DNA from: an uncultured Bacteroidota bacterium
GTDB lineage: Bacteria > Bacteroidota > Bacteroidia > Bacteroidales > P3
Direction of reading: 5' to 3'
NCBI GenBank assembly: GCA_902788805.1
Contig: CADALO010000003.1
Coordinates: 186,001 to 250,000, forward strand
DNA: 64,000 nucleotides
Made by a program: the position numbers and the translations under genes. This document shows, piece after piece, positions 3,450 to 63,784 of this stretch. Position 1 is the stretch's first letter; every line of letters starts with the position of its first letter. The notes beneath the pieces were generated by a model, which was given only the letters and a program-made list of their open reading frames with translations, made no database searches and was not told the DNA's origin.

Positions 3450-3652
3450 TCTGCTTATTTCACTACTAAAATTCTATTGAATATTTTAACAAATTCTACT
3501 GAAGTAATATTTGGGTAAACTTTGATAAAAGTTTGAGTAAACTTTGGTAGGAATTTGGTATGTGGAAATCAGGGTGTTAAGAAAACGTGTTTTTGGGCCG
3601 AAATTTTATCAAATACACCGAATGATTCACAAAACTACCGTTTTTAATTTAA

Positions 3653-9786: not shown

Positions 9787-9895
9787 GGACCAACACTGGT
9801 CGTTGTACAATATATGTACAATACTTGTACAATTGTAAACGTACAAATATTGTACAAGTATTGTACATATATTGTACAACGACCGGAGTTGGTCC
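9787..9895. repeat. Phased GTAC palindromic element, copy 1
   Basis: This 109-bp near-perfect palindrome begins GGACCAACACTGGTCG and ends CGACCGGAGTTGGTCC. GTAC tetramers start at 9805, 9816 and 9827 in the left arm and at 9841, 9852, 9863 and 9874 in the right arm, an exact 11-bp pitch within each arm. The centre reads AATTGTAAACGTAC. It lies downstream of the polyprenyl synthase gene and upstream of the exbB promoter. Confidence 0.9.
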
Positions 9896-20953: not shown

Positions 20954-21064
20954 TACCAACACTGGTCGTTGTACAATATATGTACAATAGTTGTACAATA
21001 TATGTACAATTGGTAAACGTACAAATATTGTACAAGTATTGTACATATATTGCCGGAGTTGGTA
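20954..21064. repeat. Phased GTAC palindromic element, copy 2 (right arm shortened)
   Basis: It begins TACCAACACTGGTCG and ends CCGGAGTTGGTA. GTAC starts at 20971, 20982, 20993 and 21004, then 21019, 21030 and 21041, so the pitch is 11 bp with a 15-bp central step. The last GTACAACGA of the right arm is missing compared with copy 1. It lies upstream of a small lipoprotein gene. Confidence 0.9.
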
Positions 21065-27319: not shown

Positions 27320-27343
27320 CGATGACCTAATCAAATTAAAAAA

Positions 27344-27439
27344 GGGTAAGCTGTTTATATCGCGTCGCTACAACCAAACACCCTTGCTGCATTCCTGCCC
27401 TGGGGGATTCAATGGGAGCTGACCGTATAAGACTTACCC
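27344..27439 (-). ncRNA. ffs: Signal recognition particle RNA, small bacterial type
   Basis: Read on minus, this 96-nt gene begins GGGTAAGTC and ends with the complement AGCTTACCC, closing the terminal stem. The apical part contains GGTCAGCTCCC, CCCCAGGGCAGGAATGCAGC and AAGGGTG, which correspond to the domain IV loop bound by Ffh and the flanking helix. It would partner with Ffh in cotranslational membrane targeting. A perfect TACTTTTG promoter box lies 6 bp upstream of the 5' end. Confidence 0.9.
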
Positions 27440-27444
27440 GAATG

Positions 27445-27452
27445 CAAAAGTA
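27445..27452 (-). promoter_or_regulatory. TAnnTTTG promoter box of ffs
   Basis: On the minus strand this reads TACTTTTG followed by C. The box ends six bases before the first nucleotide of the SRP RNA, the expected -7 distance. Confidence 0.8.
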
Positions 27453-29281: not shown

Positions 29282-29380
29282 GGACCAACACTGGTCGTTG
29301 TACAATATATGTACAATAGTTGTACAATACTTGTACAATTGGTAAACGTACAAATATTGTACAAGTATTGTACATATATT
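29282..29380. repeat. Phased GTAC palindromic element, copy 3 (right end truncated)
   Basis: It begins GGACCAACACTGGTCG. GTAC starts at 29300, 29311, 29322 and 29333, then 29348, 29359 and 29370, an 11-bp pitch with a 15-bp central step. The right arm stops after GTACATATATT and lacks the final GTACAACGACCGGAGTTGG cap. It lies 39 bp left of the promoter box of the gene at 29529. Confidence 0.9.
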
Positions 29381-38513: not shown

Positions 38514-38655
38514 GGACCAACACTGGTCGTTGTACAATATATGTACAATAGTTGTACAATACTTGTACAATTGTAAACGTACAAATATTGTACAAGTATT
38601 GTACATATATATTGTACAAGTATTGTACATATATTGTACAACGACCGGAGTTGGT
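38514..38655. repeat. Phased GTAC palindromic element, copy 4 (extended right arm)
   Basis: It begins GGACCAACACTGGTCG and ends CGACCGGAGTTGGTA. GTAC starts at 38532, 38543, 38554 and 38565 on the left, then 38579, 38590, 38601, 38614, 38625 and 38636 on the right. The right arm has two more units than the left, with one 13-bp step that suggests a partial duplication. It lies 69 bp left of the promoter box of the gene at 38755. Confidence 0.9.
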
Positions 38656-48650: not shown

Positions 48651-48753
48651 AAAATGGGTGTTTTGACTTAATTGATTGATATTCAACAATATACTCATAA
48701 TATCAACGCTGTATTATAACCGCTTCATCTCCAGTTTTTTATAGAGACATCTT

Positions 48754-48851
48754 CGTTCGTTGTCCGTTCGTTGTCCGATTGTTGTCCGATCATTGATCGG
48801 ACAACAATCGGACAACAATCGGACAACGAACGGACAACGTGTGGAGTTGGT
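48754..48851. repeat. Phased GTCC/GGAC palindromic element (variant, copy 6)
   Basis: GTCC starts at 48762, 48773 and 48784. GGAC starts at 48799, 48810, 48821 and 48832, exactly 11 bp apart. The 11-mers are GTCCGTTCGTT and GTCCGATTGTT rather than GTACAATANNT, but the arm plan, the outer CGTTGTCC step and the terminal GGAGTTGGT match the GTAC elements. It lies upstream of the nadE promoter. Confidence 0.88.
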
Positions 48852-63664: not shown

Positions 63665-63784
63665 GGACCAACTCCGGTCGTTGTACAATACTTGTACAAT
63701 AGTTGTACAATATTTGTACGTTTACCAATTGTACAAGTATTGTACAACTATTGTACAAGTATTGTACAACGACCGGAGTTGGTA
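63665..63784. repeat. Phased GTAC palindromic element, copy 5
   Basis: It begins GGACCAACTCCGGTCG and ends CGACCGGAGTTGGTA. GTAC starts at 63683, 63694, 63705 and 63716 on the left and at 63731, 63742, 63753 and 63764 on the right: exact 11-bp pitch, 15-bp central step and equal arms. The centre (GTACGTTTACCAATT) is inverted compared with copies 2-4. It lies 112 bp left of the promoter box of the last gene. Confidence 0.92.

Follow-up and report, generated by a model that had tools for sequence, protein, structure and literature searches.

Phased palindromic arrays as candidate domain markers on a Bacteroidales chromosome

The draft genome of an uncultured Bacteroidales bacterium (G000; 2.73 Mb, 25 contigs, 50.4% GC) contains ~195 palindromic arrays of 11-bp units, all unit families counted, or roughly one per 11,000 letters. 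The arrays share a common architecture, keep a minimum distance from one another, favor divergent intergenic gaps, retain their positions in relatives while switching units, and are linked to members of a paralogous gene family. Cognate proteins assembled on these phased arrays may mark or insulate chromosome domains, a reading over which our confidence is evenly divided. Protein binding, autoregulation, an insulating or architectural role, and the mode by which copies spread are what we infer from these features.

Array architecture and unit families

The window (the whole 64-kb stretch of DNA analyzed, G000:C3:186001-250000) holds seven arrays:

~3463..3575, unstranded: degenerate CAAAT-family 11-bp array in a divergent gap, with units of CAAATTCTTAC type, from scan and sequence reading
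9789..9893, unstranded: GTAC-family palindrome, copy 1, running from a ACCAACACTGGTCG cap to a GGAGTTGGT cap
20955..21063, unstranded: GTAC-family palindrome, copy 2, with a short right arm (probably assembly)
29284..29378, unstranded: GTAC-family palindrome, copy 3, lacking the right cap (probably assembly)
38516..38655, unstranded: GTAC-family palindrome, copy 4, its right arm with extra units and a 13-bp step
48747..48851, unstranded: TTGTCCG-unit palindrome of the GTCCAG class, missed by the first-pass annotation
63667..63783, unstranded: GTAC-family palindrome, copy 5, with its center in reverse orientation

The first-pass annotation had described five GTAC elements of 11-bp pitch. All five are present where it placed them and lie far above chance, as the triple GTAC-N7-GTAC-N7-GTAC matches the window 17 times, always within these elements, and never in 100 dinucleotide shuffles of the window. 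The pitch is borne out, as is the single 13-bp step in copy 4. Its inventory was short by two further 11-bp arrays (48747-48851 and ~3463-3575), the latter scoring 61, above all null scores, in a sequence-agnostic scan that combines 11-bp self-match with dyad symmetry. Copy 2 falls in a convergent gap according to the ORF calls. The sole Rfam match in the window is the Bacteroidales small SRP RNA at 27340-27446 (minus strand).

The GTAC elements form a real family that is the visible tip of the larger multi-family set. The genome-wide count that had been proposed as a check gives 64 GTAC palindromes in G000; the other unit families are TTGTCCGCTTG (44 copies, centered on TTTTAAA or TTTAAAA), TTGTCCAGTTG (34 copies, GTCCGA/GTCCGT variants included), TTCAACSATA, and CAAATTCTTAC. 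The 11-bp pitch and ACCAAC...GTTGGT-type caps are common to the GTAC, TTGTCCGCTTG, and TTGTCCAGTTG families. Relatives were scanned with unit patterns and G000 with the sequence-agnostic scan, which returned 8 TCAAC-family arrays and 32 CAAAT-family arrays plus 12 weaker ones; CAAAT units were absent from the 11 other genus genomes tested. A degenerate scan of G000 for TGTNC arrays, whose null was empty, added only a chimera (C8:22354-22484) that mixes GTAC and GTCCGC units in arms that do not match, and it found no decayed TGTNC copies with fewer than six of the eight phased units. The set of 195 leaves out 11-bp GGAGTGAAAGG minisatellite palindromes. These GGAGTGAAAGG/GAGTTAAGG elements have a GGGACAAATGTACC-like center (e.g., C21:34636, C12:157326, and C5:1752), and several directly adjoin other arrays. 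A separate long-hairpin repeat (GTGCGACACACCCCGGCCTTCGGCCACCCCTCTCCGAGAGGGG..., the loop often with TGATTATCAA; e.g., C5:69300, C12:87018, and C2:233881) usually lies 170-470 bp from an 11-bp array.

Intact copies in the assemblies of relatives are almost invariant in layout, with 33 of 34 made of exactly four units, 1 bp, and four units. Unit sequences differ among species (TGTACAGTA, TGTACGCTA, TGTACGGTA, TGTACGATA, and TGTCCGGTA), while pitch, unit number, and symmetry are retained; the conservation of pitch that the first-pass annotation had wished to see examined thus extends to relatives, where 11 bp is kept across unit changes. Each unit consists of a conserved ~9-bp core and a freer 2-bp spacer. 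Base pairing between arms is not kept everywhere, whereas the cores are. In MAG RGIG5467, left and right arms are mismatched in the copies examined, which indicates that unit identity outweighs pairing there. Overall, arms match better than shuffled arms (60 versus 92 mismatches, with relatedness uncontrolled). The 11-bp periodicity extends outward beyond the caps as degenerate units that fade over ~5 units per side (head-side autocorrelation at lag 11 of 0.79 versus ~0.5 elsewhere), and in some Prevotella MAGs such units can be traced by eye for ~100 bp or more per side. On the tail side, ~75-110 bp outward, arrays have a semi-conserved tail (CCCTTGAAAGGCTGGAAATGAGGCGGTTATG...), and TTGATNATCAA-like motifs often come after it.

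Many palindromes in this draft assembly carry errors. Read on the contig plus strand, 106 of the 142 TGTNC elements have an intact left cap and 53 an intact right cap; right arms are often shortened or duplicated, regardless of element orientation. Because the truncations affect the right-hand side as read along the contig, whichever way the element points, we ascribe them to assembly and dropped a biological explanation. The short right arm of copy 2 and the incomplete one of copy 3 look like assembly errors, and the extra units of copy 4 probably are as well; array positions are unaffected. Palindrome damage on the contig right side is a sign of directional gap filling, and several contigs terminate within or close to arrays.

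Placement, spacing, and inheritance of positions

Gene calls were made with our own script. Among the 127 gaps with TGTNC arrays, 65 were divergent (35-43 expected), none contained two such arrays, and convergent gaps were not preferred. TAnnTTTGC is the Bacteroidetes-type -7 consensus, and in G000 it occurs upstream of genes 322 times in sense and 104 times in antisense. Around a larger set of arrays, 94 such motifs point outward and 11 inward, indicating that arrays mostly lie upstream of both promoters.

No two TGTNC arrays lie less than 4.8 kb apart, while a null that drew length- and orientation-matched gaps (5,000 runs) gave a mean of 22 pairs that close and never fewer than 9. Considering all arrays within called gaps, 5 pairs lie less than 5 kb apart, where 41.8 were expected and the null minimum was 23. 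With a median spacing of 11.2 kb over all 195 arrays and exclusion below 5 kb, the distribution is chromosome-wide and non-random, as for nucleoid-organizing sites of the matS/MatP type. Occupancy follows the same rule: divergent gaps 220 bp or longer were occupied in 86 of 113 cases when no other array lay within 5 kb and in 0 of 34 when one did. Convergent gaps behave alike (0/17 with another array closer than 5 kb; 10/17 with the nearest at least 8 kb away). Non-divergent gaps were occupied less often near a long divergent gap (15/118) than elsewhere (55/185). The exclusion rule holds across families, including those that share no units. Regular spacing also appears in genome G053, where 91 elements of one family give 19 same-contig spacings of 7.6-32 kb (CV 0.35).

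Relatives that bear arrays are mostly rumen or gut MAGs labeled Bacteroidales, Prevotellaceae, or Prevotella. For 30 of their arrays, chosen for a 5' orthologue in G000 at 60% identity or more, the orthologous gap in G000 was occupied in 23 cases, where length-matched gaps predict 11.4 (P ~1e-5). The occupant usually belongs to a different unit family. In one comparison (L226 versus C4), the flanks are ~85% identical and all eight units differ (GTCCAG versus GTCCGC); in another (L221 versus C1), the right flank is orthologous, and the element and left flank have been replaced. Within the window, the slot equivalent to copy 3 is occupied by a GTAC array in L241, a close relative, and the gap orthologous to that of copy 5 holds an array with the same units in L173 and with other units in L182. 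Of the seven unoccupied gaps, five have an array 0.5-3.6 kb away. Sites initially regarded as unconserved proved, in the sequence-agnostic scan, to contain other unit families. Comparisons with relatives revealed no clean empty site that would define mobile boundaries, if there are any. A domain-marker or insulator function in the cell predicts cross-family exclusion, frequent use of divergent gaps more than 5 kb from another array, positional inheritance, and an absence of decayed TGTNC copies.

Array-linked genes and a proposed domain-marking system

Proteome clustering of G000 uncovered a paralogue family with members located just downstream of arrays. Sub-group A comprises three genes that are ~54-60% identical, and group B corresponds to Pfam DUF6266. 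The array-linked members are as follows:

C11:54783: sub-group A gene; the array in front of it is of the GTCCAG class and mixes GTCCG[ATC] units
C12:484: A gene behind a GTAC array
C21:22195: A gene behind a GTCCGC array
C12:167171, C14:22179, C3:41582, and C8:110891: DUF6266 genes with CAAAT arrays upstream
C13:29697: DUF6266-group gene with a degenerate CAAAT array upstream, read by eye
C14:65424: DUF6266-group gene with four ACCAWSYCTAT-type 11-mers upstream
C5:58739: eleventh member, skipped by the gene caller, just downstream of array C5:58579

C18:13187 has no array upstream. The detector placed an array upstream of 7 of the first 10 paralogues, compared with 7.6% of all genes having one within 300 bp upstream (P 1.5e-6). 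In all three A genes, the array sits in the 5' leader, downstream of the promoter, and each TGTNC family is apparently paired with one A paralogue. The TCAAC family yielded no partner gene. Among other paralogues in this genome are two families, one of 24 members that we take to be ECF-type sigma factors and one of 11 small proteins that presumably resemble four-helix-bundle (23S rRNA intervening sequence) proteins.

Linkage between gene and array is seen again in Prevotella-type genomes and in several members of the genus. In relatives' loci, which were selected because an array lies no more than a few kilobases away, all five A homologues have one at most 450 bp upstream. Across the genus, A homologues occur in 15 of 16 array-positive genomes and 39 of 82 TGTNC-array-negative genomes (p 6e-4). 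The gene adjoins an array in G053, G054, G022, and G002; by a strict pattern, adjacency was not found in G012, G036, G046, and G082. DUF6266 is expanded in G001, G002, G004, and G024 (18-39 matches per genome, 39 in G001). Since G001 is rich in DUF6266 yet without TGTNC and CAAAT arrays, other units are predicted there.

Both A and B proteins are predicted to fold into an N-terminal β-hairpin and long helix followed by a β-rich C-terminal domain (pLDDT ~76). The B C terminus is FN3-like (Foldseek, best E 4e-5), the A fold had no Foldseek match at E ≤ 0.001, and the two groups show weak profile similarity. The predicted fold contains no recognized DNA-binding domain, and no nuclease or transposase domain was detected in the partner proteins. 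Their linkage to arrays suggests that they may bind DNA. Helically phased binding by these candidate partners is the best reading of the arrays: this part of the first-pass interpretation fits best, given the retained cores and the candidate proteins, while the RAYT link it had raised was not found. The additional unit families, the ~11-kb spacing, the divergent-promoter placement, and the partner genes went unnoticed in that annotation. Our literature searches found no description of such 11-bp-phased repeats or of DUF6266.

We propose that the palindromes are binding-site arrays in which four plus four phased 11-bp units stand in mirror symmetry, and that DUF6266 proteins and the distant sister group A would constitute a DNA-binding family. 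Each paralogue would recognize its own unit family, sit downstream of a copy, and probably autoregulate. Bound arrays, placed upstream of and between divergent promoters about once per 10-15 kb, could act as interchangeable domain markers or insulators (~10-kb domains), for instance if they pin DNA, cluster, or keep supercoils from diffusing. New unit families would enter existing slots by copying or gene conversion, and because they spread into the same slots, positions would persist as sequences change. The broader proposal, of which we are slightly less than half convinced, is an undescribed partitioning or insulating system of rumen and gut Bacteroidales, in which DUF6266-superfamily proteins act with private arrays at ~1 per 10 kb. 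Arrays would mark most of the available long divergent promoter regions, and families would compete for slots and replace one another in them, so that sequence turns over and the domain map is inherited. We know of no sequence-encoded, evenly spaced domain boundaries. In this genome, candidate boundaries are legible in the sequence itself, together with a spacing rule, a pattern of positional inheritance, and a candidate protein family; an orphan domain family of up to 39 matches per genome and a puzzling repeat thereby become a testable system. Supercoil domains of ~10 kb, as well as matS sites, have been described in bacteria (PMC3420936).

Alternative readings and comparison with known systems

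The strongest competitor, though we consider it unlikely, is that the arrays are selfish repeats in the manner of REPIN/RAYT, i.e., non-autonomous miniature elements copied by a cognate gene product, their even spacing being due to target immunity, or to selection against copies lying close together, instead of to a cellular function. Many near-identical copies within each genome, families that differ among species, an apparently distinct gene next to a copy of each family, and family replacement at orthologous sites all suit this account. It sits less well with exclusion between families that share no units, the lack of decayed TGTNC copies, the preference for upstream divergent gaps, and inherited positions; moreover, neither a target duplication nor a clean empty site came to light, and the partner has neither a transposase or nuclease domain nor a Y1 link. 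The first-pass annotation had suggested looking for RAYT-type transposases. Three Y1 genes (PF01797) occur in G000, none directly beside an array and the nearest at ~1.3 kb. A Y1 partner was rejected, with Y1 present in 62 of 98 genus genomes and absent from G042, which has 84 arm matches. The pairing of families with genes and the uniformity of copies inside a genome do resemble REPIN/RAYT, and spread may therefore be selfish even where the cell makes use of the sites.

A conventional regulon, with arrays as operators of a global transcription factor for the flanking divergent genes, would account for arrays upstream of promoters on both sides and for partner genes with an array in their own 5' leader. 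It does not predict a ~5-kb exclusion zone, fallback to convergent gaps, or five interchangeable unit families, and we judge it improbable. Transcribed RNA hairpins (terminators, attenuators, or RNase III sites) are highly improbable, since despite long, near-perfect palindromes and the 5'-leader arrays of the three A genes, most arrays lie upstream of both promoters, convergent gaps are not favored, and cores and pitch are kept where arms mismatch family-wide in some species or, as in the C8 chimera, do not match; no array in the window matches Rfam, and an RNA terminator or Rfam family was rejected.

The statement that the elements match no known REP, BIME, MITE, or CRISPR family appears to hold up. 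CRISPR was set aside, as the arrays are dispersed single palindromes without spacers. With respect to MITEs, the caps form inverted repeats, and no target duplication is evident. Single-arm elements flanking a transposase were sought in G000, and none was found. The caps do not fit the integron attC core-site consensus. A plasmid or phage origin was rejected, as the plasmid and phage records searched contained no similar DNA and partner-protein relatives were absent from viral contigs and, with one query each, from plasmids and phages. Viral matches to the unit pattern were mostly direct repeats, with no 4+4 palindrome seen. Several viral contigs, including L276, L277, L278, L284, L287, and L292, carry direct 11-bp repeats (CCGGACAAGTA or ATGTACAGTTT) that resemble single arms.

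Among systems of known function, parC of plasmid R1 consists of 11-bp iterons bound by the ribbon-helix-helix protein ParR, with one site per plasmid. The shared features are arrays of 11-bp units and, with the binding role putative here, a multi-site nucleoprotein complex and a location at the promoter of the binding protein's operon; parC lacks a mirror-symmetric 4+4 core, and our partner is not predicted to be ribbon-helix-helix. The matS/MatP system likewise distributes tens of specific protein sites along the chromosome, as our candidate sites would. However, matS is short and limited to the terminus region, whereas the arrays measure ~90-110 bp, occur on most contigs, and belong to several interchangeable sequence families.

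REPIN/RAYT systems also consist of ~100-bp intergenic palindromes in many copies, and a genome has several families, each of which lies next to a single-copy gene of its own (PMC3116915, PMC2817692); Pseudomonas fluorescens SBW25 has three REPIN groups and three RAYTs (PMC3116915). G000 likewise contains high-copy palindromic extragenic doublets (64, 44, and 34 copies), and its three A paralogues stand behind different TGTNC families, the GTCCAG-class one having mixed units. RAYTs are Y1 tyrosine transposases, whereas the DUF6266-like partner has no Y1 domain, and unlike REPINs, the arrays show 11-bp phasing, even cross-family spacing, and divergent-promoter placement. The BrickBuilt MITE of Porphyromonas gingivalis is another intergenic Bacteroidales repeat with tandem repeats inside it (PMC4596501). 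BrickBuilt has 23-nt repeats between a leader and a tail, TIRs similar to P. gingivalis IS elements, and ~10-20 copies (PMC4596501), while the arrays described here have 4+4 mirror-symmetric 11-bp units, no IS-type TIR that we could find, and ~195 copies.
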